From Fibrobacter sp. UWR4 (GTDB taxonomy: Bacteria > Fibrobacterota > Fibrobacteria > Fibrobacterales > Fibrobacteraceae), in the NCBI RefSeq assembly GCF_003149045.1, contig NZ_QGDU01000016.1, positions 1 to 64,000 of the forward strand: a stretch of DNA of 64,000 nucleotides. Direction: 5' to 3'. Of this stretch, positions 31,701 to 62,038 are shown piece by piece. Under the pieces are notes generated by a model. It searched no databases and was not told the DNA's origin. It worked only from the letters and a program-made list of their open reading frames with translations. A program made the translations under genes and the position numbers. Positions within the stretch are counted from its first letter, which is position 1, and each line of letters begins with the position of its first letter.

Positions 31701-32875
31701 CTACCTGCCACGAAATTGAATCCGCCATAAAGGCTATGCTTATGGCAGATTCTCCTGCAGCAAGATTTTTCTCCCAGCAAAATCTGGACATTCGTTACTA
31801 CGTAAAGACTCCGGAACGTGCGGTAGACCGTTATCGCGACGTCGTTCTGGTCTGCGCGGAATCTGAAGGCGCTACAGGCATCGCAGGCGACCACAAGGTC
31901 GCTGTCTGCACATCCCTGGCAAAGACGGAACAATACGTATTCATTTCCGAATCAGACCTAGCCAAGAAGGCAAGTGCAAAGCACAGCAATCTGTTCTGGG
32001 AATGGATCAACTACCTGCAACAGAAGGAATTCTGCAGCGAGATTCATTATACTCCGGCAAGTTCCGTCATTCGTCCCCAAGTGATGTCCGCCCTGCAGGA
32101 AGAAAACATTCTGGTGGAAGAATACTTCAACCCCGCAGGCATTGCAGTTGGCCCCGTCATCGTGGACGCCAACAACAGCAAGCGATTCCTTGCCCTCGTT
32201 GAAGACGACTGCACTACAGAACGCTTCAGAAGTTCTATCGAGGATCGGGATTATATCAGGCCCACCCTTCTAAAGCAACAAGGCTGGAAGATTCTAAATC
32301 TTTGGCTCCCCTTCTGGTACATGGTTCGCCAGGACGAAATCGGCCACTTGGTAGCCACCATCGCTATTGAACAGAGCGTAGCACCTCCGCCTCCGGATCC
32401 TCAGGAAGAGGCTCAGGAGGAAGAACTCTTTAGCGAAGCTACCTCCGGCAGTAATGTTGTCCCCTACCAGGTGCAGCATCCTAAGATTGAAGGAACACCC
32501 CACGACAAACCCATTGCGGAATTGCCGGCAGCAGCCCTCATCACCCAGTTGAAATTCTACGTGGATCATGAAGCCCCCATCCATCAGGATGTGCTGAAGA
32601 ACCGTGTGCTAGAACTTCATCATGTGGACCGTGCAGGTCCCATGATTCAGCAGGCTCTTACGGAAGCTATCAACCAGGGTCTCCAGAAGAAGCGATTCGT
32701 CAAGACAGGTCTCTTCTTCTATTCCTTGAATCCGACCGAATATGTTCCTCGCGATCGTTCCGGACGTCCTGATTCCGAAAGGAAACTGGCTTACGTCGGT
32801 CCCGAAGAAAGAGCCCTAATGCCAGACTCCATGGACGAGCACGCATTGAAGCAGGCCCTTGGCCTACTGGAATAA
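28757..32875 (+). CDS. DUF4011/DUF3320 helicase-like giant with decayed motifs
   Basis: 1372-residue protein with the layout of DUF4011-helicase-Vsr/MTES_1575-DUF3320 proteins. The DUF4011 start is seen in LLFDSKDRLLNFSSKG (19-34). The Walker A site aligns to STLPGTSKMKVATN (281-294): the Lys is kept but the flanking Gly and Ser/Thr are lost. Walker B aligns to FDLAIILDADSIS, with DEAS changed to LDAD, although MGDPQNP is recognisable. The HYRS motif reads SSNYAN and QGDERD reads AVDRYRD. The nuclease-like part (RSSIEDRDYIRP, QQGWKILNLW) keeps the tail motif but seems to lack the first acidic residues. DUF3320 follows (HEAPIHQDVLKNRVLELHHV). The reading frame is intact, so it is a conserved-looking but probably non-catalytic relative. 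Function unknown. Confidence 0.8.
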   Translation: MSPASSSANISKLRQEVLLFDSKDRLLNFSSKGDFQSPLIMEAGDLFFEKWLQSKGPLPLDSFFPINANYTAQQKLTQIDVFSTVLREKMEDFGETDLYLVLGFLKWDGNALAPSLLVPVEVDVAKKTLTLSNKAPIENVVLRERLKDVLPNALPKVDDAIINGQFSILLYFSLFEKAVATARNWKFTRHGICLSFFNTGDLHMRQWFDEVPQDKKLDSNPNLNALFTQNGFELQESLFEDGDINQMFSPADYHFPYVMDSHTSKVTLDALNEECKAYAISTLPGTSKMKVATNIVAENVSKGKKVLVVNRRAVTASTFKNTWKPPFRTFPDSDRAKLQQDLKTFRQELVEYYETVNKPIQPSGIMLGDLLTEFGKAKISKQKIPESVFQGINQLDYPTYQNLKSDLLNLVDLYFEKKGFEARRAFQDVHVPSLNDNQKLSLANELTEAAEKVAELDTIITLMETAGLFPTGIFLSSLADLLKLIQDHFDQDTPSFEDWVLRSSNWDSYKDTLMALPEAGDKWVRYRRQTSEIYTDNAVDENILSAREDFAESQNTTLKGLSDRYRTSRRTLMKVIRDPKSVDSDLKLLDLIDTLLDLQENKRAYKETSVLGNHLLGKDWLYERSDWVELNRKIRYIYDFKEKNKNNPKMDLLLQILEQWHLFKDLQPKIARFYQAVLELQKSIKQISKDMGLESSLESLSIEKWLDTIKSWSENWENLDIHLELSALIAKLGSYNCPGLVKFVEDTNNVSKEVAQAVIHYWTGYQIQLATKSCPDLFSLNPKARAKKTKSYQALLDSFSNANFREFQTTVENDSSLLTVVHLNDTYQLGHKHFDLAIILDADSISAVEALPTLIAADRVVLMGDPQNPALEHLPFDAYQETASNHTAMFHESILASALRRGIPTRELWFSSNYANSALVDFANRKIYNRGIKQLPLPNREEFKGIRFKAVQNKVLAVAQAAVRHAERNPGKTLGIVAFHQSTCHEIESAIKAMLMADSPAARFFSQQNLDIRYYVKTPERAVDRYRDVVLVCAESEGATGIAGDHKVAVCTSLAKTEQYVFISESDLAKKASAKHSNLFWEWINYLQQKEFCSEIHYTPASSVIRPQVMSALQEENILVEEYFNPAGIAVGPVIVDANNSKRFLALVEDDCTTERFRSSIEDRDYIRPTLLKQQGWKILNLWLPFWYMVRQDEIGHLVATIAIEQSVAPPPPDPQEEAQEEELFSEATSGSNVVPYQVQHPKIEGTPHDKPIAELPAAALITQLKFYVDHEAPIHQDVLKNRVLELHHVDRAGPMIQQALTEAINQGLQKKRFVKTGLFFYSLNPTEYVPRDRSGRPDSERKLAYVGPEERALMPDSMDEHALKQALGLLE

Positions 32876-43185: not shown

Positions 43186-46100
43186 TTACTTGATTGCAAT
43201 ACGAGCGCTCTTGATCAGGCTGCCGCTAACAACACGAACCAGATAGCTACCCTTATTCAAGTGTTCCAGATTCATGACGTAGGATCCGGAAACTCGTTCC
43301 ATACGGGATTCAATAGCGTTACCCATCAGGTCAAAGATCTGAATCTTGACGGACCCATTGTTTGCGGAAACCGTCAGGGCATTGCCAGAGAAACCAAGGT
43401 TCAGCATGGAACGAATACCTGCGATAGTCAGCGGGCCTTCCATGTCGGAGCTGGAGGATTCCTGGGGCTGTTCCACGGAGCTGCTGGAAATTTCCGACAA
43501 GCTGCTGCTAGAAGAAATTACAGGCTGTTCGCTGCTGCTGGAGAGTCCGGACAGGCTGCTAGAGGACTGCGGTGGAACTTCGACGGAACTGCTGGATTCC
43601 AGAGGCTTTTCGCTGGAGGAAGACTTCGCGGAACTGGAAGACTTGGGAAGTACCGTCAAGTTGAAGAAGAGCAATTCACCATTCACCTTAATGGTATCCA
43701 CATAAGCCTTCACAGGAGCCCAGGAGGCAACCGTGCCAGAAATGACCACCTGTCCATCCGTAGCCTGCTGGGGGAAGGAAAGGAAGTTGATGTTCCAGGA
43801 CTTGCGAGAGGATTTTTCCACGCCCGTAATCACAATCGGTTCAATCTCTCCGCCAATTGCAACCGTCTGATCCAGGCTACCAGAAATCACATAAGTCGCG
43901 ACACTGCTGGAGGAAACCGTCTCGCTGGAGCTGGAAATTTCAAGAGCAATACTGCTACTGGAACTTTCCTCAGCAGGTTCACTGCTGGAAGATGCGACCA
44001 CCACACTGGAGCTAGAGACTGGAGGGATTTCGCTAGAGCTGGAAACAACAGGCTCTTCGCTGGAGGAAGATTCCACGCTGGAAGAAGATGCCGGCGGAAG
44101 AGCGGTTACCTTGATGAGAACCTTTGCGGAAGTATTTTCATCCACACCGGTAACAGCGATGGAAATTTCATAATCATGAGTTGCGCTAGAGGCATCAATC
44201 TTACCGCTAATGGTATAAGTCTTTGCTTTTTCATCCAAAGAACTCGTCAAACCTTTAGGCATTCCCGTTGCAGAAATACTCTTCATGTTTTCGTACTTGA
44301 AAACAATGGGTTCAATCATGTCACCTGCAACTACAGACTGTTCCGTCTCGCTAGTAGTGGTGAACGTGGTCTTCACAGGAGCGCGGGTTACCTTGATGGT
44401 TCCCGTTGCAGTCTTATTTTCATCTACACCGGTAACGGAAATGACGTACTTGTAATCGAAGGTTCCGGATTCGGCATCAACCGTTCCGCTAAGAGTGTAG
44501 GTCTTTGCAGTTTCATTCAGGACTGCTTTAATTCCAACAGGCAAACCTGATACAGAGATGTTCGTTACGTTTTCAAAGGTATAGACAATTGGCTCGATGG
44601 CATCGCCTGCTACAACAGACTGTACAGTCTTGTCTGTTGTAGAGAATGTGGTCACTACAGGAGCGCGTGTCACCTTGATGGTTCCAGTGACAGTCTTGTT
44701 TTCATCTACACCGGTAACGGAAATGGTATAGGCATAATCATGAGTTCCTGAAGTTGCATCAACCTTGCCGCTGAGAGTATAGGTCTTTGCAGTTTCATCC
44801 AGCTTTGCCGTAATGCCATTCGGTAAACCTGAAGCAGAAATGTCCGTTACGTTTTCAAAGGTATAGACAATTGGCTCGATGGCATCGCCTGCTACAACAG
44901 ACTGTACAGTCTTGTCTGTTGTGGAGAACGTGGTCACCAGCGGAGTACGAGAGCTGGAACTAGCGACAGAGCTGCTGGATACTGCAGAACTGGAACTGGA
45001 ATTCACGCTGCTAGAACTTGCTGCAGTTGTGGACGGTTTCTTAATGGACCAGCCACTGCAACGGACGTCATCAATGTAGAGATAGTTCAGGAACGGCTGA
45101 CTGCCCTTGATTTCCCAGGTGAATTTATTGATACGGCTCTTGGAAAGTGCCACCGGATCCGGCCAGGAATCCTGGAGAAGTTCATCCCAGGAAATTTCCG
45201 CCGTAGTCCAATCAGAAGAACCAGCCATGGCAATCTGATGATAACCATAATCCTTTACCGCAGTATCTTCAGCCTTGAAATTATGAGCGGCACCCCTATA
45301 CTTGTAGCTAATGGTATTGCACTTGGAAAGATCGTAAGCAGATTCATCCGCATTCAGTTTCACGCCAAGAGCAACAAACGGATCGTATTCGTAGGAACCC
45401 TGATTCAATTTAACGCCTGTTAGGCCAGCCACATTCTTGGAGATATTTCCAGCAGTAGACCCAGCAAGAACAACCTTATAACCATCCTTATTGGTTGCAT
45501 TGCTGAAAGTAGATGAGGCTCCATTTTCGTTATCATTATAGGCATACCAGACACCACCAGTATATGCCAGGGAGTCTCCATCTTCAATGTCGTCAATATA
45601 ATCGATATAGCCAGCAGGCAAAACAACACTGGAGGAACTAGCTGCGGAACTACTGGAAGCTGGACTCGTTGAGCCGTCGCAAGCGGTATAAGTCTTGGGA
45701 AGTCCCGCAAAAACGTTTTCGTTTACCCACTCGCCACTTTCGGAATAGTTCCATGCAGAACCGCTAAAGTAAGATGCGGATTCAGGCTTATTGGATACAG
45801 ACCAGTTTGCACCGGAAAGTTTATGCTGGTTCATCCAGGAAAGCCATGTGGCGCTATTGTTTTTGCTGAAGCCGCCATTACCGGAAGCGTCAACAGTGCC
45901 CCATTCCGTAACGAATACGGAAAGGCCAGCGTTCATAGCCCTGACCGCATTGGCACCTTCGCCATTAGTGGAATGGGATCCTGCATAGAAATGGAATGTA
46001 TAAGCAACGTTCTTGTCGTTAATGGGACTAGAAATTGCATCGCTAGAATACTGGTCCCAGGAACGATTGCCCACAACAACGAGGTTATCGGAATACTTAC

Positions 46101-46695
46101 GGATTTCAGAAATAACGGCTTCAGCGTAAGTTTTAATCGTACTCCAGCTAACGCCTTCCAAAGGCTCGTTATATACTTCAAAGATTACGTTATCATACTT
46201 ACCGTACTTTTCTGCCATCGTCCTAAAAAAGGTCTTGGCATTTTCGACATTTTCGTGCGCATGATGAGAGTGGTAGTCGATAATGACGTAAATATCATTA
46301 GCGATTGCAGCCTGGACCACATTGTTCATCAAGCCTTGGTAATAACTTGTCTTACCGCTAGAGAAGTAATGGCCAGAACTCCAATCTTCATCCACGCCCA
46401 TGGGGGCGCGAATCACCTGGATATTCTGTTTTTCCACCAGCCCGTTAACATAAGTATCTTTCCAGAAGGGAGCGCCCACATCACTAGCAATGCTCCAGAA
46501 CAGGCTCATTCCCTGAACCTGAACTTCGTTGCCTGCGGAAACACCCTTACAGGCGCCATAAATCTGACCCTTGCCGCTGGAATTTTTTCCAGCCTGAAGT
46601 TGACCATACTGACTTACAGGACCAATGCGGTTTGCACCAAAAGCGGAAGCCAAAAGACCCGCTACCAGAATACCGAAACCAAAAAGCTTTTTCAT
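43186..46695 (-). CDS. GH5 endoglucanase with CBM11-like module and Ig-like repeats
   Basis: 1169-residue secreted cellulase. Domains in order: signal peptide (1-21), GH5 catalytic domain (about 22-338) with acid/base Glu177 in YNEPLEG and nucleophile Glu264 in FVTEWGTVD, Ser-rich linker (345-357), CBM11-like jelly roll (about 362-555; DDIEDGDSLAYTGGVWYAY), Ser-rich linker, three 94-residue Ig-like repeats (584-865), Ser-rich spacers, a fourth diverged module (about 930-1010), more Ser linkers, and a C-terminal sorting-like tail (last 80 residues, FDLMGNAIESRMERVSGSYV). It cleaves beta-1,4-glucan. The start ATG at 46695 follows GGAGA; a TTG 18 bases earlier is less likely. First gene of the cellulase cluster from the left. 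Confidence 0.93.
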   Translation of the reverse strand: MKKLFGFGILVAGLLASAFGANRIGPVSQYGQLQAGKNSSGKGQIYGACKGVSAGNEVQVQGMSLFWSIASDVGAPFWKDTYVNGLVEKQNIQVIRAPMGVDEDWSSGHYFSSGKTSYYQGLMNNVVQAAIANDIYVIIDYHSHHAHENVENAKTFFRTMAEKYGKYDNVIFEVYNEPLEGVSWSTIKTYAEAVISEIRKYSDNLVVVGNRSWDQYSSDAISSPINDKNVAYTFHFYAGSHSTNGEGANAVRAMNAGLSVFVTEWGTVDASGNGGFSKNNSATWLSWMNQHKLSGANWSVSNKPESASYFSGSAWNYSESGEWVNENVFAGLPKTYTACDGSTSPASSSSAASSSSVVLPAGYIDYIDDIEDGDSLAYTGGVWYAYNDNENGASSTFSNATNKDGYKVVLAGSTAGNISKNVAGLTGVKLNQGSYEYDPFVALGVKLNADESAYDLSKCNTISYKYRGAAHNFKAEDTAVKDYGYHQIAMAGSSDWTTAEISWDELLQDSWPDPVALSKSRINKFTWEIKGSQPFLNYLYIDDVRCSGWSIKKPSTTAASSSSVNSSSSSAVSSSSVASSSSRTPLVTTFSTTDKTVQSVVAGDAIEPIVYTFENVTDISASGLPNGITAKLDETAKTYTLSGKVDATSGTHDYAYTISVTGVDENKTVTGTIKVTRAPVVTTFSTTDKTVQSVVAGDAIEPIVYTFENVTNISVSGLPVGIKAVLNETAKTYTLSGTVDAESGTFDYKYVISVTGVDENKTATGTIKVTRAPVKTTFTTTSETEQSVVAGDMIEPIVFKYENMKSISATGMPKGLTSSLDEKAKTYTISGKIDASSATHDYEISIAVTGVDENTSAKVLIKVTALPPASSSSVESSSSEEPVVSSSSEIPPVSSSSVVVASSSSEPAEESSSSSIALEISSSSETVSSSSVATYVISGSLDQTVAIGGEIEPIVITGVEKSSRKSWNINFLSFPQQATDGQVVISGTVASWAPVKAYVDTIKVNGELLFFNLTVLPKSSSSAKSSSSEKPLESSSSVEVPPQSSSSLSGLSSSSEQPVISSSSSLSEISSSSVEQPQESSSSDMEGPLTIAGIRSMLNLGFSGNALTVSANNGSVKIQIFDLMGNAIESRMERVSGSYVMNLEHLNKGSYLVRVVSGSLIKSARIAIK
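44101..44946 (-). repeat. Three tandem 282-base Ig-like repeats in GH5 gene
   Basis: Units occupy 44665-44946, 44383-44664 and 44101-44382 (94 codons each; first to third in protein order). Units 1 and 2 share a 78-base exact match (44563-44640 and its copy 282 bases to the right), including the codons for QSVVAGDAIEPIVYTFENVT. Unit 3 is more diverged but keeps the register. This suggests recent duplication of unit 1 or 2. Confidence 0.92.
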
Positions 46696-46796
46696 ATGTC
46701 TCCATGGAGGCAAAATTTTGCGGTGTAAAAATAGCTTTTTACCCCCAAAATCCCACCCTAAAAAAACAGTCCCTTCCAGATTGTGATTGGGCTAAC

Positions 46797-48751: not shown

Positions 48752-51466
48752 TTATTTCAGCGCAACACGTTTCATCATGTTGTCGGAACCGGAACGAACA
48801 CGGACGATGTAGTTACCAGTTGCCAGACTTTCCAGAGAAACTTCACCCTGAACATTACGGAAACTCTTTACCGGACGGCCCTGCATATCGAACACATCCA
48901 CATTTGCAAAGCTTACGCCAGAAATCTGGAGAGAACGACCGATGAGGTTAGCGCCAATCCTGGAGAGGGCGGCAATATCACCGATATCCAGAACACTTCC
49001 TCTAGAGGAACTGCTTCTGGGCTTCACCGTTGCGCTAGAACTGCTTGCGGGAGCAACGATCTTAAGGCCTTCGCACTTGAAGTTATCCACATAGAGGTAG
49101 TTGGGAACTGCGGATTCACCCTTCACTTCCCAGTGGAATGCGGAAACCTTATTCTTGCTGAGAGCAACTTCTTCACCCCAACCAGCCTGTTCCAGGTCAG
49201 CCCATGCGATAGAAGCTGTAGTCCAGGAGGTAGAAGCCGGAACTGCTGCCGTGTGGCGGTCATAACTGGTAACCGCGCCCTTGCCATCGCCGGCAAGAAT
49301 TGCCTTGAAATTATGGGCCGCACCGATGTAATCGTAAGAAATGGACCTGCAGCTGGAGAGATCATATGCAGCATCTTCCTTTGCAAGATTCAAGCCAAGA
49401 GCAACATACGGATCATAAGCATTTCCACCCTGATCCAGCTTAATATCCTTAAGGCCACCCATCGTGGTAGAGCCGTTAGTAGCCGGGAAGATTACTACGT
49501 AACCACCATTTTCCACATCTTCTTCATTTGCGAAGGTAGAGGCGCCCTTGTCGCCCTTATCGTTATAGGCAAACCAGTAGCCGCTGGTATAGGCCTGATT
49601 GTCGCCGTCTTCGAAGTCATCCACCATGCCAGTTGCCGCAACAGTTGCGCTAGAAGTAGGCTTAACAGAGCTAGAGGAAGCGACAACAGAAGAACTGCTG
49701 GACTTTACAACAGAGCTGGAGCTACGGACAACCGTGGAGCTGGAAGACTTCGGAGTGCTACTAGAAGAACTGGGAGTGGCGACCACGTTGATAGACATAC
49801 CATCGCACATGAAATCGTCAATGTAGAGGTAGTCGTACTTCAAGGTTGTGGTAGGTTCGTCATCGTCACCCTTCACTTCCCAGGCAAACTTGTTCACAGT
49901 ATTCTTGAACTTGGAAATGTCAAAGTGTGTTTCAGCTTCTGCAGCACCCCAATTGCCCTGAACCAAATCAGCCCAATCGATGGTCACAGTTTTCCATTCA
50001 CCCTGGTCAATAAAGCTTGTGGAGTGATAATTGTAGTTTTCAACCTTTGTGGACTGGACCTTAAAGTTATGGGCAGCGCCCTTGTACTTATAGCTGAAGG
50101 TCTTGCAAGAAGTCAAGTCGAAAGCGGATTCATCCTTGTTGAGGTTAATACCCAAGGCAATATAAGGAGCATATTCGTTTTCACCCTTAACGAGCTTAAT
50201 ACCTGTAGCGGCCAACATGCCCTTGGTGCTGTTGCTGTTATCAGTGGGGACAACCACAGTCCAGCCTTCTCCATCATCATCGACAACGACCTTGTTGCCA
50301 ATGGAAGACTGGCCCTTGTCATCCTTATCGGTATAGGCATACCAGACACCACCCGTAAAGGCATACTTGTTCAAATCTTCAAAGTCATCGAACATGTTGG
50401 TCTTGCCACCAGATACGACGCCACCAACGCTAGAAGAGGAGGAAGCGGGAATCACAGCACCGGAACGCCAAGGAGCAACCTTTGCCCAATCCTGCAACTT
50501 GTTGTAGACATACTTACCAGACTCGGAGTAGCCATCATAGCTCCAATTCTGCGGGTTGGTATAGGAAGACTGATTGGCAAAGATAGATGCACTTTCATCC
50601 TTGCTATGAACGGACCAGTTGCACCAGGAAATCTTCTTCTGGTCAAGATAGGACAGCCATGCGTCAGAATTGGAAGAATTGTAACCGCCATTGCCGCTAG
50701 CGTCCACAGTACCCCATTCCGTCACGAAAACGGTGAGGCCAGCCTGAATTGCCTGGTTGATTCCGTTTCTATAGGTGGGAGCGCCATCGTAGGAGCCACC
50801 ATCCAACTGGTGGGAACCGGCATAGAAATGGAAAGTATAAGCAACGTTGCTATCCTTAATCGGATTAGAAACAGCTTCACCCGGACGGATGGAATATTCG
50901 CTATTACCCACGATAATCAAGTTGTCGGTACCACCATTCTGACGAATCACAGGAATAACCTGATCCGCATAAGTCTTGATAGTACTCCACATGTTTTTAC
51001 CCATGGGTTCATTATAAATTTCAAAAATTACGTTGGGGTATTTTCCCCACTTGCTGGCCATGGTCTTGAAGAAGGCCTTTGCATCGTCAGTTTGAATATG
51101 AGCCTCATGGGAATGGAAATCGATAATGACATAAATACCGTTATCAATGGCTGCCTGAATGACAGTTTCGTCAACACTCTGCCAGTTGGCCATGGGGCCA
51201 CCGCCCTTTGTACCGCCGACACCATGAGGAACGCGGATAATTTCAATCTTCCACTTATCCACCAAGTTCTTGATCACGCTGGAAGTATAAAATTCAGAGG
51301 ACCATACGTCCCAGAACATACTCATACCCTTAAGCTGGACCGGCTGACCAGTCTTGGCACTATAAAGCATGCCTTCTTTAGCCTGGAGCTTGCCATACAC
51401 GTCTGCAGGACCTGCGGCAAAAAGCGAAGCTGCCAACAAAAGGCAGAAACCAAATATTCTTTTCAT
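48752..51466 (-). CDS. GH5 endoglucanase with two CBM11-like modules
   Basis: 904-residue secreted cellulase. Signal peptide (1-18), GH5 domain (about 20-335) with acid/base Glu153 in IYNEPMGKN and nucleophile Glu250 in FVTEWGTVD, Ser linker, first CBM11-like module (about 356-555; NMFDDFEDLNKYAFTGGVWY), a Ser-rich linker (560-600), second CBM11-like module (about 603-790; MVDDFEDGDNQAYTSGYWFA) and a sorting-like tail (about 835-904; FDMQGRPVKSFRNVQG). The GH5 domain is more diverged than those of the two neighbours (for example it has FHSHEAH where they have YHSHHAH). The ATG at 51466 follows GAGAGGA. It has a possible promoter and operator upstream. Confidence 0.93.
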   Translation of the reverse strand: MKRIFGFCLLLAASLFAAGPADVYGKLQAKEGMLYSAKTGQPVQLKGMSMFWDVWSSEFYTSSVIKNLVDKWKIEIIRVPHGVGGTKGGGPMANWQSVDETVIQAAIDNGIYVIIDFHSHEAHIQTDDAKAFFKTMASKWGKYPNVIFEIYNEPMGKNMWSTIKTYADQVIPVIRQNGGTDNLIIVGNSEYSIRPGEAVSNPIKDSNVAYTFHFYAGSHQLDGGSYDGAPTYRNGINQAIQAGLTVFVTEWGTVDASGNGGYNSSNSDAWLSYLDQKKISWCNWSVHSKDESASIFANQSSYTNPQNWSYDGYSESGKYVYNKLQDWAKVAPWRSGAVIPASSSSSVGGVVSGGKTNMFDDFEDLNKYAFTGGVWYAYTDKDDKGQSSIGNKVVVDDDGEGWTVVVPTDNSNSTKGMLAATGIKLVKGENEYAPYIALGINLNKDESAFDLTSCKTFSYKYKGAAHNFKVQSTKVENYNYHSTSFIDQGEWKTVTIDWADLVQGNWGAAEAETHFDISKFKNTVNKFAWEVKGDDDEPTTTLKYDYLYIDDFMCDGMSINVVATPSSSSSTPKSSSSTVVRSSSSVVKSSSSSVVASSSSVKPTSSATVAATGMVDDFEDGDNQAYTSGYWFAYNDKGDKGASTFANEEDVENGGYVVIFPATNGSTTMGGLKDIKLDQGGNAYDPYVALGLNLAKEDAAYDLSSCRSISYDYIGAAHNFKAILAGDGKGAVTSYDRHTAAVPASTSWTTASIAWADLEQAGWGEEVALSKNKVSAFHWEVKGESAVPNYLYVDNFKCEGLKIVAPASSSSATVKPRSSSSRGSVLDIGDIAALSRIGANLIGRSLQISGVSFANVDVFDMQGRPVKSFRNVQGEVSLESLATGNYIVRVRSGSDNMMKRVALK

Positions 51467-51560
51467 AGACAATCCTCTCTCTATGTTAGTCTAATGAATG
51501 ACACCGAGAGGAAATCTATACCCATGCAAAACAAAAAAAACTTTCCCCAAATGCAAAAAC

Positions 51561-53686: not shown

Positions 53687-55024
53687 ATGCAAAAGTCCGT
53701 GCAAGTAAAAGACCGTTCCCTTTTGAGCCTTTCCTGGCCCTTATTCCTCACCTTTGGAATTGCTACCTGCCAGCCCATGATGGATAGCTGGTTCCTGGCC
53801 AGAACCTCGGAAACGGCGGCAGCGGGCGTTGGCGCCCTGGGCCCCATTCTCGGAGCCATTTTCATGGCCATTACCGCCTTTTCCCAGGCAGGGGCCAGTA
53901 TCGCCTCCCAGTTCATGGGCGCAGAACGCCCCCGCCAGGCAGGTACCACCCAGACCATGGTCCTGCTAGGCAGCCTCCTTCTGGGGATAGCCATCATGCT
54001 GGTCACACTCCCCCTGTCTCACAACATCGTAAGCTGGATGGGACTTACCGGTGACGCGGCCACTTACGGTTACGAATTCCTGTATATCGTCTCCTTCGGG
54101 TTTGCATTCCGTTCCCTGCAGACCACCCTCACGTCTTTAATCGCGACCCACGGACTTACCGGCTGGAACCTGATCGGAAACGTCATCACCATCGTTTCCA
54201 ACGCCATCATGAACGTAATCTTCCTGAACGGATACCTGGGACTTCCCAAGATGGGCGTGAAGGGTGTGGCTCTTGCCACTATGCTTTCCTGGTTTATTTC
54301 CAGCGTGGTACTGTACGTAATCCTGAAGTACAAAATCCATCACAAGATTCGCAACACGGACTTCAAACGTTCCCGCGTGATTTTGCCGGACTGGATCCGC
54401 ATTGGCGTCCCTGCAGCCGTGGAGCCTGTCAGCTTCCAGATTTTCCAGGTGGTCCTGACCGCCATCATCGTACACCTGGGCATTACCGCCATGACGGCGC
54501 GAATCTTCAGTGCAAACTTCGCCATGTTGGCAGTGATCCTAAGTGTCGGCCTCAGCAGCGGAAACCAGATTCTGGTGGCCCACCTGGTAGGCGCCCACGA
54601 TTTTGACAAGGCCAACAGGCGTCTGCACCAGAGCCTTGCAGCAGGTTGCAGCAGCGGTCTTATCGTTGCAATCCTCGTCGCTCTCTGCGGAACAAAGCTG
54701 ATGTCCTTTTATACGCTGGACCCTGAAATCCAGCGTCTGGGTCAAATTTGTCTCTGGTGCGATGTGGCCCTGCAGCCCTTCAAGGCCGCCAATATGACTA
54801 TTACAGCGGCGCTACGTGCAGCAGGCGATTCCAAGTTCCCGGCCATCGTAGGCTCCACCATGATGTGGACTTGCGGTCTAGGCACCGCTCTGCTCCTGGG
54901 ATTCGTCCTGGATATGGGACTGGCAGGAATCTGGCTGGGCATGGCCGCAGACGAATTCTACCGTTCTATCGTGAATTACATCCGCTGGCGCAAAGGCAAC
55001 TGGAAAACCCTAGGCGTCGTCTAA
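53687..55024 (+). CDS. MATE-family efflux transporter, copy 2
   Basis: 445-residue membrane protein with 12 hydrophobic segments. The N-terminal half has LSWPLFLTFGIATCQPMMDS, then SETAAAGVGALGPILGAIFM; the second half has SVGLSSGNQILVAHLVGAHD, the usual conserved QxxxGxxxGA-type stretch. It differs strongly from the MATE protein at 39.2 kb and belongs to another subgroup. The ATG lies in a region without a clear ribosome site. It is convergent with the patatin gene, 15 bases away. The palindromic site upstream suggests a drug-responsive repressor. Confidence 0.88.
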   Translation: MQKSVQVKDRSLLSLSWPLFLTFGIATCQPMMDSWFLARTSETAAAGVGALGPILGAIFMAITAFSQAGASIASQFMGAERPRQAGTTQTMVLLGSLLLGIAIMLVTLPLSHNIVSWMGLTGDAATYGYEFLYIVSFGFAFRSLQTTLTSLIATHGLTGWNLIGNVITIVSNAIMNVIFLNGYLGLPKMGVKGVALATMLSWFISSVVLYVILKYKIHHKIRNTDFKRSRVILPDWIRIGVPAAVEPVSFQIFQVVLTAIIVHLGITAMTARIFSANFAMLAVILSVGLSSGNQILVAHLVGAHDFDKANRRLHQSLAAGCSSGLIVAILVALCGTKLMSFYTLDPEIQRLGQICLWCDVALQPFKAANMTITAALRAAGDSKFPAIVGSTMMWTCGLGTALLLGFVLDMGLAGIWLGMAADEFYRSIVNYIRWRKGNWKTLGVV

Positions 55025-55039
55025 CCTAGGCGGCCACGT

Positions 55040-57337
55040 CTAGAATTCGTAATCACCTACACGAATGAAGTAGGTGTGTTCCTGGAAATTTTTCAGGGAG
55101 CCAAGGTTATTCTGGTCCACAACACGGTTCATACCCGCATATATGGTGATGGACTTGTAATTAAAGCGCAAGGCTGGTTCCAGAATGAACTTGTTGGGTC
55201 TAAGAGTTGCGTAAGGGTTCTCTTCAAAGTCGTGGAAGTACGCCCCGAAAATCCACAGGCCAAAGCGCTTGCTATGGATTGCTGCACTTGCTCGCAGGAG
55301 TGCGTATTCATGGGATGCCAGTTCAGGATCGTTCCACTGGCTAGTCCAGGGCGTAGCCTCTCCATGAAGACGATATACGAGGTCCAGAGGAGCATATCCA
55401 AAAGATTCCGGAACTACGTATCCATAACCATCTTCGCGATAGCGTTCAATGCCTGCAGATGCCCCCACCGTAAAGGTTGCAAAAGGTCTGGGAGAAACCG
55501 TATAACGAGAATCCAAAATAAGCTTCCAGTATATGGGGACAACGTCATTCACGCCAAAATCAAAGCCAATACTTTCTAGGCCCACGAAACCATCTACAGC
55601 CAAGCCTTTAGTAGAGAACCACTTGTCATCCTCCCCCTTCTTGAAGCTGTAATGAATTGCAGGGGAAACGGGATAAGTCCTTATGGACTTATTGCCATAG
55701 TAAAGATCCAATTCAAAAATTCGCTGACCGAAAAGGAAATCCAGGGAGACCTTCTGTTCCTGATTCAAGCTATACATCAGGGACATGGTAAAGTCATTAC
55801 GTTCTTCGGAACAGATACGCAAGGAGGATCTGATGTCATTGTTGAAGCTCTTCAACGGGACCAGTTTCATCAGGTCATAGCCCACCTGAACCGCCCAATG
55901 CTTGTTCCACAATCTGGAAAAAGCCAGACGGGGCGTAAACCCGTAGGAAGATCCTCCCCAGAAGCCTTTCAAGGACAACTGTATTTCCATCTGGTCGATG
56001 TAATTGACGGTTGCCTCCAGATAGCCATTTGCCCCAATCACATTGGAACCGAACACCCCTGCAGCAAGGTCAAAAGTAGGATGCACCGCAGTTCCTACCA
56101 GCAATTCCCCATTAGGCTGCATCAAGAAAAGGAGAGAGTCATAAGCAGGATTTTCCGCAACACTTAAAGCGAAGTTTATAGGTGCAGCAAATCCAGTATC
56201 CGTTTCCGCCCAGTGAGACTGTACAGCTGTCAGCACTTCCGCAGACACACCATCAAAGGACGGCGTAAACCGGAACCAGGGCAAGGCAGAGGCGTTATGA
56301 TTCTTGGAGTAATCCACCTTACGGTTTGCCAGTCGTTCCATTTCAGGAAGCTTGCGTTCCAACGCAGTAAAGCCCGCCTGGATCCAGGCATTGCGGGCGG
56401 TATCCAGAATAGAATGGGAACGGATGATAACGCCAGGTTGCGTAGCCAAGGTGGCCGCCGCCTGCTTAAGCAAGATGCCCTTACGATCATCCCCCTTAAA
56501 TTCACTACGGAGAGGTTCAGCAACAGCAATAAGAGATATCTCGTCGGCACGGTCCTCTAGAGGAATCGCATAGTGAGGGCAGATTTCTCCGGAAATTTCA
56601 CCTGAGGTATTCGACTCATTCCACAGAGGCAGACTGTTAATGACCGCCTCCACGGAATTTCCTCGAGAGGTACCATCACAACCCTGCACGGAGAACGGTA
56701 TAGTCTGCTTGCCACGCTGACGGTAGAGAATTTCCTGAAAGCGAAGGCGCGCAAGAGAATGTTCCATATAAGTCGAATCCATTTCCAGAGGGAGCAGCTT
56801 TCGTGCTGCATGACCAGCGGAATCTACCCGCAGGGAGAATCGCTGACGAAATGCAGGAACGCCCTTAGGTGAAACGGCTATTTCCTGACCTTCCCTGGAA
56901 TGCATTTTCTTCAAGGTTAGATCTCGCCCTACAAAGGATACGATGGCAGGATCCAACAGCAGTCTCTGAATTTCATCTACCGCAATACCACGGCTCCAGA
57001 GGGAACCAACCCAGGCGCCCCAGGACGTACCCACAATGGAATCCACAGGAATGCCGTATTCCTCGATGGCGTAAAGGACCCCGAGATAATACCACGGGGA
57101 ACGATCACCGCCCCCTAGATAAAGAACGGATTTCGCATCACTGGCGGAAAGCGGAGCTGCACTCTTCTGTGCGGTGGAATCCAGGGATTTCGCAAAGACA
57201 TCCAATACCGGAATGTCCGCCTGAGCCGTAGAGTCGATTGCTTCCCCGGCAAAAGCGGATACGGCAAAAAGGGCTGCAAGAGCAACCCCCTTCACCCCGT
57301 GCGTAAAATTACCCAAGAACCGCAGGATTGGAAACAT
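55040..57337 (-). CDS. Patatin-like protein with C-terminal beta-barrel
   Basis: 765-residue exported protein. The signal peptide is VKGVALAALFAVSAFA. Residues 70-330 are a patatin fold: oxyanion loop YLGGGDRSPW and nucleophile Ser105 in GTSWGAWV. The position of the catalytic Asp (DGG/DGA in the family) reads SGEICPHYAIP, so the dyad seems broken. Residues about 400-765 alternate polar and aromatic residues in strands (for example YGFTPRLAFSRLWN, FIRVGDYEF at the end, with a terminal Phe), as in 16-strand barrels of the Omp85-like group. PlpD-type patatin autotransporters have a similar layout. I chose the ATG at 57337; it overlaps the upstream gene by 29 bases. Confidence 0.82.
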   Translation of the reverse strand: MFPILRFLGNFTHGVKGVALAALFAVSAFAGEAIDSTAQADIPVLDVFAKSLDSTAQKSAAPLSASDAKSVLYLGGGDRSPWYYLGVLYAIEEYGIPVDSIVGTSWGAWVGSLWSRGIAVDEIQRLLLDPAIVSFVGRDLTLKKMHSREGQEIAVSPKGVPAFRQRFSLRVDSAGHAARKLLPLEMDSTYMEHSLARLRFQEILYRQRGKQTIPFSVQGCDGTSRGNSVEAVINSLPLWNESNTSGEISGEICPHYAIPLEDRADEISLIAVAEPLRSEFKGDDRKGILLKQAAATLATQPGVIIRSHSILDTARNAWIQAGFTALERKLPEMERLANRKVDYSKNHNASALPWFRFTPSFDGVSAEVLTAVQSHWAETDTGFAAPINFALSVAENPAYDSLLFLMQPNGELLVGTAVHPTFDLAAGVFGSNVIGANGYLEATVNYIDQMEIQLSLKGFWGGSSYGFTPRLAFSRLWNKHWAVQVGYDLMKLVPLKSFNNDIRSSLRICSEERNDFTMSLMYSLNQEQKVSLDFLFGQRIFELDLYYGNKSIRTYPVSPAIHYSFKKGEDDKWFSTKGLAVDGFVGLESIGFDFGVNDVVPIYWKLILDSRYTVSPRPFATFTVGASAGIERYREDGYGYVVPESFGYAPLDLVYRLHGEATPWTSQWNDPELASHEYALLRASAAIHSKRFGLWIFGAYFHDFEENPYATLRPNKFILEPALRFNYKSITIYAGMNRVVDQNNLGSLKNFQEHTYFIRVGDYEF

Positions 57338-58310
57338 ACTTACCTGCATCTTCCTTGGCGACATAACCAGACTGAACCAAGGAGGCCAGGCAGTCATCCA
57401 TCAGGAGCATTCCTTCGGAAGCAGATGCGGAAATAATGGAAGGCAGGGAGAACAATTCTCCACTACGGATGCGGGAAGATACGTTCTGTGAACCAAAGAG
57501 AACTTCCCATGCCGGGATACTGCTGTTCTCGGCACCGGGCAGCAAGCGCTGCACCACAACAGCCTTCAATACAGAAGCAAGCATGTTACGGGCCAAGTCA
57601 CGTTCTTCGTCAGCAACGTCAGAGAGAAGAGCTTCCAGAGCGCCCACCGTATTGCCGGCCGTAACAGTCAACACCACCAGGGCACCAGCTTCAGCAGCTT
57701 CCAGAATAGGAATCAGCGGGAGACCTTCAAAGTCACCCATCCACATCAGGTCCGAACCACTACGGAGGGCCTGGGTCATCTTGTCCGTCACGCAACCAAA
57801 GGAATCCTTCAAGAGAAGGCTCTCGCCAGTCTTAATGGGAAGTTCGTCTGCGGAAGCCAGATTGTTTACGCGAAGAATTGCGGACTGGCATAGGGCGGAA
57901 ACGTAAGCGGAAGCAGTTGTAGTCTTGCCACTGCAGGCAGGGCCGGCAAACACCACAAGACCGCTGTTCAGGCCAAGCATACTCTCCATGGTAGGAGGAG
58001 CGCCAAGGGAGCTAAAGTCAGGGCATTCCTCCAGCAAGGGGCGGAACACGGCCGTGTTACCAAGAGCAGTCCTATTGTAGCGAACACGCCAGCGGGATCC
58101 ACTCCAAGGGCCAGCGATAACAGAACCGCTTTCGGCATCCATGGCGCCGATAAAACTACGGAGTGTGCCGGGCTCTACGGAGGGAGCGTCGGGAATGGCA
58201 CAAACTTTTCCGGACAGGCGAACAGCAGAAGCCGCACCTTCGGAAATAATCAATTCACTGGCACCCACATTCAGGGCATATTCCAACAAGGATTCAATTT
58301 CTGTCGCCAT
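57309..58310 (-). CDS. PilT-like ATPase, Walker A kept
   Basis: 333-residue cytoplasmic protein of the PilT/GspE secretion-ATPase superfamily. The Walker A motif GPACSGKTTTAS is intact, but the Asp box and the His box are not recognisable and Walker B reads DLMWMGDFEG instead of VGEMRD. The layout (N-terminal PAS-like part of about 100 residues, then the RecA core) matches PilT, and length is close to PilT (about 340-370). The ribosome site AGGAGG is excellent. It follows a paralogue by nine bases and overlaps the patatin gene. It may form hetero-oligomers with that paralogue. No pilin genes are near. Confidence 0.8.
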   Translation of the reverse strand: MATEIESLLEYALNVGASELIISEGAASAVRLSGKVCAIPDAPSVEPGTLRSFIGAMDAESGSVIAGPWSGSRWRVRYNRTALGNTAVFRPLLEECPDFSSLGAPPTMESMLGLNSGLVVFAGPACSGKTTTASAYVSALCQSAILRVNNLASADELPIKTGESLLLKDSFGCVTDKMTQALRSGSDLMWMGDFEGLPLIPILEAAEAGALVVLTVTAGNTVGALEALLSDVADEERDLARNMLASVLKAVVVQRLLPGAENSSIPAWEVLFGSQNVSSRIRSGELFSLPSIISASASEGMLLMDDCLASLVQSGYVAKEDAGKYVSNPAVLG

Positions 58311-58319
58311 AAATCCTCC

Positions 58320-59918
58320 TTACTTTGTGGGACGGTAAGAGACGAAGCGCCTCGAATCGCAAGAACGTTTCCAGGCTTCCATGCCGTCGATATAACCAGA
58401 TTCAACACACTTCTGCAGAGAGTCGTCCAGAGTAATGCCCTGATCCTTCTGGCTGCTGATTGCGGCTGTAATCTGAGCCACACTGCCACGGCGAATCAAG
58501 TTTGCCATGGGAGACGTCATACGAACGGCTTCTACCGCAAGGACCTGACCCTGATTCTGAACCACAGGCACCAGATGCTGCACCACAACACCCTTCAACT
58601 GATCAGCCAAGGTATTGGCAAAGGCAATACGGTTCTTTTCCGGGACAGAGCTCATGAGTCTGGAAAGGAGGGAGTGAACATTATTGCCAGAAGCAACAGC
58701 AAAGACAAGGGCGCCTGCATTGGCGGCGTTCAAAAGCGCGGCAAGCTCCTCGTAGGTTTCCACATGGTCAAAGAGAATCACATCGGCGCCAGACTGTACT
58801 GCCAGGGATATACCCTCCAGGCCCGTATGGACATGGAGACCCACTTCACGCTGGGCAATTGCGCCATTGGGATTCTGGAGGATTCGCTCGATAGGCTTTT
58901 CAACCGTCTGGATATAGACATTACGATTTGCCGCAATAGTTTCGGCAAAGGCGGTCATAGTAGTAGAGCGACCACTTGCAGAAGGACCCGCAATCAACAC
59001 CAAGCCACTGTTCAATTCCGTAAAGCGGTTGCAGAAAGTCGGCAAGTACAAGTTGTCAATAGAAGTCGATTCCGTAGGGATGACGCGTACGGAAATGCTG
59101 GGAGTCGTATTATCCCAGGTAACCGTCACACGGGCGCGTCCCACACCGGGAAGTCCAATGGTCTTACTGAAATTCTTGCCCACGACAATCTTGTAGCCAT
59201 CGGAGAATCCCTTGGCAGCTTCGTTCAGGCGGTCGCTAATGCGGGACAGGTCCAGGGGCTGCTCGGAAGCCACAAAGAGGACACCGGACTGGCGCATGAC
59301 AACAGGGCGGTCAGCAAACAGGTAAATGTCCGTCGCATTGAACTTGCGTGCAAACGCAATAAGCTGGGAGAGGTTCGTCATGGGACGGATCGTCTCGGGC
59401 GCTTCCACCGGTTCGCCTTCCCCTGTGGCCAGAGCAAAACGGCGCGGCAGCTTGCCTTCGTCTTCTTCATTCGCTTCCGCATCAAATTCCACCTGGACGG
59501 TCCCCATGCTGGTCGTTTCAAGACCAGCCACCGCCTCCACCTCTACATTAGAGGAAGACGAGGATTCTCCATAGGGATTGTTGCCTTCAATCTGGAAGGC
59601 AGGCTGTTCGGGTTCCTTAGGGGCGGCAGATGCAGCCTTGGGAGTGGGCGTAACGGACTTGCGTGCAGGAGCGGCCGTAGGCGCCGATTGCACAGGTGCC
59701 GGCGCCGGCTCTACAGGAGCAGCGGCAGCATTCTTTGCCTCGATGTTCTTGACGAAAGCAAGGACCTTGGCATAAATACTTTCGGAAATAATACCTGCTT
59801 CGACCAGGACCTGACCAATATCCTTCTGGTCATTCGCCTGAGCCCAATGGGAGTTAATCTGATCCTCGGTCACCATCTTGTTGTGAACAAGGACCTTAGC
59901 CATATACTGGTTTCTCAT
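58320..59918 (-). CDS. PilT-like protein with degenerate Walker A and MshEN-like head
   Basis: 532-residue protein. Residues 1-55 look like a GspE/MshEN N-terminal domain (MAKVLVHNKMVTEDQINSHW). Residues about 60-180 are a low-complexity Ala/Pro/Glu linker. The C-terminal 345 residues are PilT-like: Walker A reads GPSASGRSTT (Lys to Arg), the Asp box TVEKPIERIL, then QREVGLHVHTGLE; Walker B is ILFDHVETYEE with no GEMRD. The residues needed for ATP hydrolysis are thus largely gone. The ribosome site GGAGGG is strong. It overlaps the ABC permease gene by four bases (ATGA). It probably acts as a regulatory or structural partner of the next ATPase. Confidence 0.8.
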   Translation of the reverse strand: MRNQYMAKVLVHNKMVTEDQINSHWAQANDQKDIGQVLVEAGIISESIYAKVLAFVKNIEAKNAAAAPVEPAPAPVQSAPTAAPARKSVTPTPKAASAAPKEPEQPAFQIEGNNPYGESSSSSNVEVEAVAGLETTSMGTVQVEFDAEANEEDEGKLPRRFALATGEGEPVEAPETIRPMTNLSQLIAFARKFNATDIYLFADRPVVMRQSGVLFVASEQPLDLSRISDRLNEAAKGFSDGYKIVVGKNFSKTIGLPGVGRARVTVTWDNTTPSISVRVIPTESTSIDNLYLPTFCNRFTELNSGLVLIAGPSASGRSTTMTAFAETIAANRNVYIQTVEKPIERILQNPNGAIAQREVGLHVHTGLEGISLAVQSGADVILFDHVETYEELAALLNAANAGALVFAVASGNNVHSLLSRLMSSVPEKNRIAFANTLADQLKGVVVQHLVPVVQNQGQVLAVEAVRMTSPMANLIRRGSVAQITAAISSQKDQGITLDDSLQKCVESGYIDGMEAWKRSCDSRRFVSYRPTK

Positions 59919-60718
59919 AGGAAATCCCTCCTGCTAAACCACCAGCTAGCAATTGCCAGGAATACACCTACGTAGCCTAAAGCATACACGGTATTCCAGA
60001 ACAAATACATGTCCGGCAGTGCAACACCGTGAACCACATAGCTAGTCACGTTGTAGCGGTAAAGACCAGGGAAAACCGCATGGATAGCAACAGCGGCCTT
60101 CTCAAAAAGTGCGCTGGACGAGGCGTCCATTTCACCCATGCGAGCGGCGAAACGAACCTGCTCCAGAAGCTGGTTGCTTAAATGACCAGCCATGTAGACG
60201 CCAAGAGTGAACAAGGCACTCAATACCGTACTGCTAAAGCTACTGAACAGCAAGGCGACTGCGATAACAACAGCCATCTCGCAGAAAATCAAATAAACAG
60301 CAATTAGCAGACTTGCTGTAGGATCAGAACCCGTCACAAGCAAAGTCAGGTAGAAAATCACGGTCAGGAGGACCAGATGGACAGCCACCACCGCCAGAAG
60401 ACCAAAGTACTTACCCACAATAAACGCAGCACGGGTAATGGGCTTAGAAAGCAAGGTAAGGACAGTACGCCTCTGAATTTCCTTCTGCACCAGGCTGATG
60501 CCCACGAAGATGGAAATCAGAAGCCCCGACAGGCTCATGATGGAGAGCGTGGTTGACTTGATCACGTAGGCGCGGTCAAAGACGGACCATTCCCCCAGGA
60601 CAATGCTGAACAAGGCAAGAGCCACAGCAAAGAAGCCGATGTTGTAAAGGATCTTATCGCGAATGGATTCGCGGAAAGTATTCAAGGCAATGACGAAAAT
60701 GTGATTAAGCGTCTGCAC
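59915..60718 (-). CDS. ABC-2-type transporter permease
   Basis: 267-residue membrane protein with six hydrophobic segments. The N-terminal FVIALNTFRESIRDKILYNI and ISLVQKEIQRRTVLTLLSKP followed by the RAAFIVGKYFG stretch are typical of ABC-2 permeases of the NosY/GldF kind. It should pair with the ATPase encoded directly upstream, with which it overlaps. The start is uncertain: GTG at 60718 fits the spacing to GGAGG better than TTG at 60724. The substrate is unknown. Confidence 0.85.
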   Translation of the reverse strand: MQTLNHIFVIALNTFRESIRDKILYNIGFFAVALALFSIVLGEWSVFDRAYVIKSTTLSIMSLSGLLISIFVGISLVQKEIQRRTVLTLLSKPITRAAFIVGKYFGLLAVVAVHLVLLTVIFYLTLLVTGSDPTASLLIAVYLIFCEMAVVIAVALLFSSFSSTVLSALFTLGVYMAGHLSNQLLEQVRFAARMGEMDASSSALFEKAAVAIHAVFPGLYRYNVTSYVVHGVALPDMYLFWNTVYALGYVGVFLAIASWWFSRRDFL

Positions 60719-61616
60719 GAGCAATCTCCTCCGTCAAAATATCTTCAAGACTGGGGCGCTTATGCTCCATACGTTCAATGGAAATGTTCTTGTCCAGACA
60801 ATACCTGAGCAGGCGATCGCGGGCGGCGTCATCTTCACAGATACATTCCTGGGGATGGCCGGCGGGAGTTACACCCTGGGGCAGATCCTGCAGGAGAATT
60901 CCCTGACGGGTTCGAACATGGTATTCAACGCCACAGGCATTAGTGATTTCATCCACCGTACCTTCGCGGACAATGCGACCATCCACGATCATCGCCACAC
61001 GGTGGCTGATGGCTTCCACATCGCTAAGCAAATGGCTGGAGTAGAATACGGTCACACCCATGTTGTTCAGTTCCTGAATGGCACTGCGAACATCACGACG
61101 ACCCACCGGATCAAGACCACTCATAGGTTCGTCCAGAATCAAGAGCTTCGGCTTGCTCAGGATAGACTGAGCAATACCCACACGTTGCATCATGCCCTTG
61201 GAATAGGAACGAAGACGGCGGTCAATCCAGTCCTTATTTGCATGGAGCAATTCCAGGGACCATTCAATCCGCTTGTCCAGTTCAGTTCCCTGCAGCCCCA
61301 CCAGCTTGCCATAGAACTTCAGCAGTTCACGGCCTGTGAGATAGTCATAGAAATAAGGCTGTTCCGGAGAGTAGCCAATAAAAGACCTACTCTTCACATC
61401 GCGGGGACTTACGCCATTCACCAGCACCTTGCCGGAATCATAGCGCAAAAGACCTGTCAACACCTTGATGGTGGTAGACTTTCCGGCCCCGTTAGGACCA
61501 ATAAAACCAAAAACCTGGCCCGGTTCCACCTTAAAACTCACATCCTTCAATGCAAGCTTCGGTTTCATCAGGAAACCCGACCTATACGTCTTATGCAAAT
61601 GCTCGATCTGAATCAT
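60705..61616 (-). CDS. ABC transporter ATP-binding protein
   Basis: 303-residue ATPase with the complete motif set: Walker A GPNGAGKSTTIK, signature YSKGMMQRVGIAQ, Walker B LLILDEPMSGLDPVGRRD and the H-loop SSHLLSDVE. The C-terminal 85 residues carry a small extra domain that often regulates this ABC-2 class. It energises the permease encoded next. It shares its start codon's A with the stop of the two-TM protein gene (TAATG), so translation is coupled. Confidence 0.93.
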   Translation of the reverse strand: MIQIEHLHKTYRSGFLMKPKLALKDVSFKVEPGQVFGFIGPNGAGKSTTIKVLTGLLRYDSGKVLVNGVSPRDVKSRSFIGYSPEQPYFYDYLTGRELLKFYGKLVGLQGTELDKRIEWSLELLHANKDWIDRRLRSYSKGMMQRVGIAQSILSKPKLLILDEPMSGLDPVGRRDVRSAIQELNNMGVTVFYSSHLLSDVEAISHRVAMIVDGRIVREGTVDEITNACGVEYHVRTRQGILLQDLPQGVTPAGHPQECICEDDAARDRLLRYCLDKNISIERMEHKRPSLEDILTEEIARADA

Positions 61617-61888
61617 TAGTTTTCGCCATCCTTATGGAGGCCACCAAAGGCTCTTTCCTGTGCTTCTTCAATTTCACGACGGCGACGATCCGCACGTTCC
61701 TTCTTGTTCACGAAGAAATAAATTACGGCACCCACCATGTAAACACCGATACCAGTGTAGAAAAAGGGGTTAATCGTCGTAGCGCCCGGGAACAAGTCTA
61801 CAATCAAATTCTGACCAAACAAGCTGATCAGAACAACAACAAAACCCAAAGCTCTAAGAACGTAGGTAGCAATCACCAATTTTCGCAT
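61616..61888 (-). CDS. Two-helix membrane protein of unknown function
   Basis: 90-residue protein with two membrane helices (VIATYVLRALGFVVVLISLF and FYTGIGVYMVGAVIYFFV) and a highly charged, Arg/Glu-rich cytoplasmic tail (ERADRRRREIEEAQERAF). I do not recognise the family. The ribosome site GAGGT is six bases before the ATG. It begins the six-gene operon and overlaps the ABC ATPase gene. Confidence 0.72.
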   Translation of the reverse strand: MRKLVIATYVLRALGFVVVLISLFGQNLIVDLFPGATTINPFFYTGIGVYMVGAVIYFFVNKKERADRRRREIEEAQERAFGGLHKDGEN

Positions 61889-62007: not shown

Positions 62008-62038
62008 AAAAGAAAAGGCCCCGACACCAGTCGGGGTC
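62008..62038 (-). terminator. Terminator of DASS symporter gene
   Basis: On the minus strand ACCCCGAC and GTCGGGGC pair around TGGT, followed by CTTTTCTTTT. It lies 33 bases after the stop of the DASS gene and separates it from the six-gene operon. Confidence 0.9.

Follow-up and report, generated by a model that had tools for sequence, protein, structure and literature searches.

What would an ABC exporter, two relatives of the pilus-retraction ATPase PilT and a patatin-barrel protein do when they are encoded side by side? Six open reading frames in Fibrobacter sp. UWR4 raise this question. Members of the genus Fibrobacter are major cellulose degraders, and little is understood of their envelope export and adhesion. 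We analysed a window of 64,000 nucleotides (contig NZ_QGDU01000016.1, positions 1 to 64,000) in which the six frames, here called A to F, lie at 55040-61888 on the minus strand. An earlier note made from the DNA letters had placed them there, and our analysis located them at the same positions. The features of the locus are as follows.

A, 61616..61888, minus strand: two-TM protein of 90 aa whose gene opens the unit (open reading frame)
B, 60705..61616, minus strand: ABC exporter ATPase of the DrrA/NatA type (PF00005, 101.8 bits, cut-off 25)
C, 59915..60724, minus strand: ABC-2 permease, start TTG 60724 or GTG 60718 (PF12679, 43 bits, cut-off 27.2)
D, 58320..59918, minus strand: MshEN-like four-helix N-terminus, linker and degenerate PilT fold (TIGR01420, 188.7 bits, cut-off 319.1)
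E, 57309..58310, minus strand: degenerate PilT-like protein (TIGR01420, 131.3 bits, cut-off 319.1)
F, 55040..57397, minus strand: patatin domain, one POTRA and a 16-strand Omp85 barrel, likely start 57337 (PF01734, 32.7 bits, cut-off 27.7)
Terminator-like hairpin, 62019..62036, minus strand: between an SLC13-like gene and A (7-pair stem with 6 G-C pairs, T-rich tail)

The sequences at the gene junctions bear out the tight coupling that the earlier note had described. A and B meet at TAATG. Read from GTG 60718, C overlaps B by 14 bases; read from TTG 60724, by 20. C and D share the 4 bases ATGA, and D is separated from E by nine bases, GGAGGATTT, that contain a ribosome-binding site. E overlaps F by 29 bases when F is read from ATG 57337; the longest open reading frame for F begins at 57397. 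This coupling suggests that A to F are co-transcribed as an operon. The strong hairpin at 62019..62036, found by a consensus scan whose total was not above chance, probably bounds the unit on its upstream side. At the other end, F stops 15 bases away from a convergent MATE gene (53687-55024). Among close relatives this gene is inverted or absent, and the genes around it hold their positions.

Other genes in the window deserve mention. Two large GH5 cellulases (43186-46713 and 48752-51472) are encoded 4-12 kb from the operon, and one of them carries a Por_Secre_tail domain of type IX secretion. Positions 15342-18134 encode a CotH-kinase protein of 930 aa that has a lamin-tail domain. The 1372-aa protein encoded at 28757-32875 has weak DUF4011 and MTES_1575 nuclease matches and is possibly the product of a defence gene.

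We compared the locus across Fibrobacter genomes. The order and strand of A to F are kept in 35 of 36 other genomes of the genus, and the contig of the 36th stops inside E, so the arrangement is not due to chance. The 4-base overlap of C and D recurs in all 36, and the 20-base overlap of B and C (longest open reading frame) recurs in nearly all genomes compared. The spacing between E and F varies from -89 to +352. B, C and D are thus the most closely linked genes of the unit. All six genes are under purifying selection, with dN/dS values of 0.02-0.11 against the nearest genome and the lowest value, 0.02, for B. Values of 0.05-0.17 for D and E rule out that these two are decaying pseudogenes.

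The unit is also conserved beyond the genus. We used a genome-wide permease scan and a phylum search of 168 genomes, whose loci overlap and whose genomes are in many cases metagenome-assembled. Every Fibrobacteraceae locus uncut by a contig end kept the gene order, including that of F. intestinalis ATCC 43854 (L177). Two deep lineages, L178 and L179, keep the order B-C-D-E-F, and A was not detected in them. The phylum search recovered D from every Fibrobacter genome except one of 71% completeness and from most other genera of Fibrobacteraceae. It found no D in the 12-genome genus g17, where the sole match (G102) was an ordinary PilT adjoining PilC. The earlier note had proposed that the six genes form one system; the shared gene order supports a single conserved unit, and the genes were not found scattered in relatives inside Fibrobacteraceae.

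B and C both score above their Pfam cut-offs, which identifies them as the ATPase and permease of an ABC-2 exporter. B is predicted to be the sole protein of the six with canonical motifs for ATP hydrolysis. A matched no family above cut-off in Pfam or NCBIfam, and a homologue of A precedes B in Fibrobacter, in the genus g5 (family f3, same class as Fibrobacter) and in several Fibrimonadales. Orthologues of C are 45-51% identical across the class Fibrobacteria. The A-B-C module occurs alone, without D and E, in Fibrimonadales, and it predates the full A-F unit. A search for permease relatives on plasmids returned just two weak Manganitrophus matches. Several B-C pairs in families f7 and f10 (L114, L116-L118) are followed by a gene of about 220-270 aa in place of D, in some cases with a possible signal peptide.

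The residues lost from D and E indicate that neither protein works as a motor. The Walker-A Lys of D is replaced by Arg in 97 of 99 sequences (the D protein of locus L175 retains it), the catalytic Glu is kept in none of the 99, and only two of them still have the His box. In E, Walker A is kept in 95 of 97 sequences. The catalytic Glu of E is Asp or Asn in 94 of 97 and is kept in one, where it was aligned in a protein from L178 that lacks a P-loop; the His-box His is kept in none of the 97. The Asp box is gone from both proteins. In L178, where the identity of D falls to 25%, neither D nor E has a P-loop, yet the gene order is kept. The earlier note had described D as a PilT-like protein with a broken Walker A and E as a PilT-like ATPase. 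Its description of D stands, but E is no normal PilT ATPase.

The relation of D and E to PilT is nonetheless clear in fold for D, by its AlphaFold model (match to PilT 6ojx, TM 0.92 on the target, rmsd 2.0), and in profile for E. The two share fold, domain layout and tandem pairing with the PilT/PilU retraction ATPases of type IVa pili (TIGR01420). Unlike PilT/PilU, both fall below the family cut-off, both have lost the catalytic Glu and His box, D has also lost the Walker-A Lys, and the pair is encoded with an ABC exporter and not with pilus genes. The N-terminus of D is modelled as a four-helix bundle resembling MshEN. It scores 25.7 bits against the MshEN profile NF053729 (cut-off 38) and, compared with the published consensus (PMC11731258), it lacks both N-terminal Arg residues, the Gly residues of the first motif and the terminal Gln of the second RLG...Q motif. 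The low score and the missing key residues rule out a functional c-di-GMP sensor. The linker between this bundle and the PilT fold (residues 110-137) carries the motif IEGN.NxYG ... GLE.T, which is kept even in the deepest lineages amid an otherwise disordered stretch and is a possible docking motif. Because D and E have lost their catalytic parts, we suggest that they are retired pilus-retraction motors that now have a structural role in an export machine.

F has the layout of PlpD-type (type Vd) patatin-Omp85 proteins. In its AlphaFold model (mean pLDDT 81.8), the POTRA and 16-strand barrel match TamA and BamA with Z scores of about 20-23 (TamA, 22.7), and the patatin domain matches PlpD with a Z score of 19.6. 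This agrees with the patatin/beta-barrel assignment of the earlier note. F keeps the nucleophile motif GTSWG, and the position of the dyad DG[GA] reads SGE by alignment. The dyad Asp is thus probably lost or replaced, and the patatin domain looks inactive. This would set F apart from PlpD, as would the altered nucleophile motifs of its relatives in L179 (VGSGWG) and L178 (ASGIAS) and its encoding with an ABC exporter and a pseudo-PilT pair. In PlpD the patatin domain is periplasmic and has an effect on the phospholipids of the outer membrane (PMC11116518). Surface display of F is therefore not implied. We found nothing on a patatin in F. succinogenes among the open-licence papers searched.

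Where did the D-E pair come from? A MshEN-PilT gene followed by a PilT gene, here called D'-E', stands alone in four families of the phylum (f3, f7, f10 and f13; the f7 copy has its N-terminus cut off by a contig end), and its neighbours include no homologue of the ABC genes or of F. This two-gene unit occurs phylum-wide (L075-L080, L216-L218), and in g5 it adjoins a two-component sensor and regulator pair. Its N-terminal domain, order and adjacency are the same as those of D-E. Unlike D-E, the stand-alone pair has intact Walker A and GEMRD-type motifs, although D' already carries Asn in place of the His-box His, and the five proteins we scanned pass the TIGR01420 cut-off at 356-417 bits. The UWR4 genome has no separate intact D'-E' copy; its other T2SSE matches are two PilT proteins, intact and one of them adjoining PilC, and four PilB/GspE-like proteins.

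The genus g5 shows the parts in another arrangement. Its A-B-C genes lie at a locus separate from D'-E', and a barrel gene (F') whose product is weakly similar to F lies 1-2 kb away. Two opposite-strand genes, neither of them D nor E, stand between C and F'. This proximity indicates that exporter and barrel were once neighbours without D and E. A tree groups D with D' and E with E' without starred support (55/99 and 53/87), nor is a D+E clade rejected (p-AU 0.35). Orthology of the two pairs rests on domain layout and pair order together with this unstarred grouping. The simplest history is that a D'-E'-type pair moved between exporter and barrel in the ancestor of Fibrobacteraceae and then lost catalysis, a course with which the tree is compatible without proving it.

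The reading that we favour, tentatively and at slightly less than an even chance, is that A to F form one envelope export complex. B and C, with A, would do the exporting, and B would supply the energy. D and E would descend from a tandem PilT-like retraction ATPase pair relocated between the exporter and the barrel gene; having ceased to hydrolyse ATP, they may be retained in the cytoplasm as a ring or scaffold, docked on C and B, that positions or gates the exporter. F would be the Omp85 partner in the outer membrane, its patatin domain binding lipid or the exported product without cleaving it. Candidate substrates include a lipid, a glycolipid or a peptide. A bolder form, which we think somewhat unlikely, is a previously undescribed envelope machine in which two pilus motors, both catalytically dead, form a hetero-ring that gates or anchors an ABC exporter and is linked to a non-enzymatic patatin-Omp85 channel in the outer membrane. 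Each of the six parts has known relatives. The assembly itself was not found in the open-licence papers searched, in keeping with the remark of the earlier note that no described system is known to have this set.

Several other readings account for parts of the evidence. D and E might have kept a role in type IV pili. As PilT paralogues that no longer hydrolyse ATP, they could become part of PilT/PilB rings or of the PilC platform, or cap them, and so adjust pilus dynamics, and the ABC exporter might serve the same pilus, as suggested for PilGHI of Myxococcus. The PilT ancestry of D and E fits this proposal, as does a genome with a PilT beside PilC, another PilT, PilM and four secretins. Adjacent duplicates of pilT/pilU are frequent (PMC6668835), and in Myxococcus PilGHI counts among the non-core type IV pilus sets (PMC6060248). 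As an ABC exporter linked with type IV pilus biology, PilGHI offers a lead only. The A-F unit itself contains no pilus genes, however, and translational coupling ties D and E to C, not to any such gene. On balance we judge this reading unlikely, if a serious contender. Less probable still is an operon of convenience, in which three unrelated modules (a lipid or drug exporter, a pilus-derived pair and an outer-membrane barrel) share a promoter and require similar dosage but do no joint work. The separate occurrence of A-B-C in Fibrimonadales and of D'-E' elsewhere in the phylum, together with the loose E/F junction, would suit such an arrangement. It sits poorly with an order that is strict across the family despite the deep divergence seen in L178, and with the joint loss of catalysis by D and E only where they are placed in the A-F unit.

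We give very little credence to the idea that D and E remain ATPases that work through non-standard residues, as a mixed ring powering movement of a product or filament. The Walker A of E and the Walker-A Lys of the L175 D protein would allow it, but both proteins have lost the Walker B Glu, the Asp box and the His box, and L178 keeps the pair without any P-loop. A gliding-type exporter is hardly credible. The earlier note had seen a likeness to GldA/GldF in the ABC parts, and B does match the GldA profile TIGR03522 with an E-value of 3e-54; DrrA/NatA and GldA/GldF exporters, like B and C, have separate ATPase and permease genes. The resemblance is weak, however, and the curated cut-offs rule out this identity: B reaches 184 bits where 402.6 are required, and C reaches 20 bits against GldF (TIGR03518, cut-off 288.5). 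The 2-TM, pseudo-PilT and barrel partners further distinguish the Fibrobacter unit. F. succinogenes has not been shown to be motile (PMC3079729), and the surface display or gliding-like motility that the earlier note had floated gained no support from anything we found. We also rejected a defence system, for which PADLOC matches were weak and confined to generic ATPase and phospholipase hits.

The D-E pair bears on how a motor can change its role. Because one phylum holds both the intact stand-alone pair and its degenerate operonic counterpart, the proposed transition from motor to scaffold can be tested there. A pilus-type motor pair of one family that moved beside an exporter, lost catalysis and is still under selection would amount to a natural experiment on the conversion of a motor ATPase into a scaffold.
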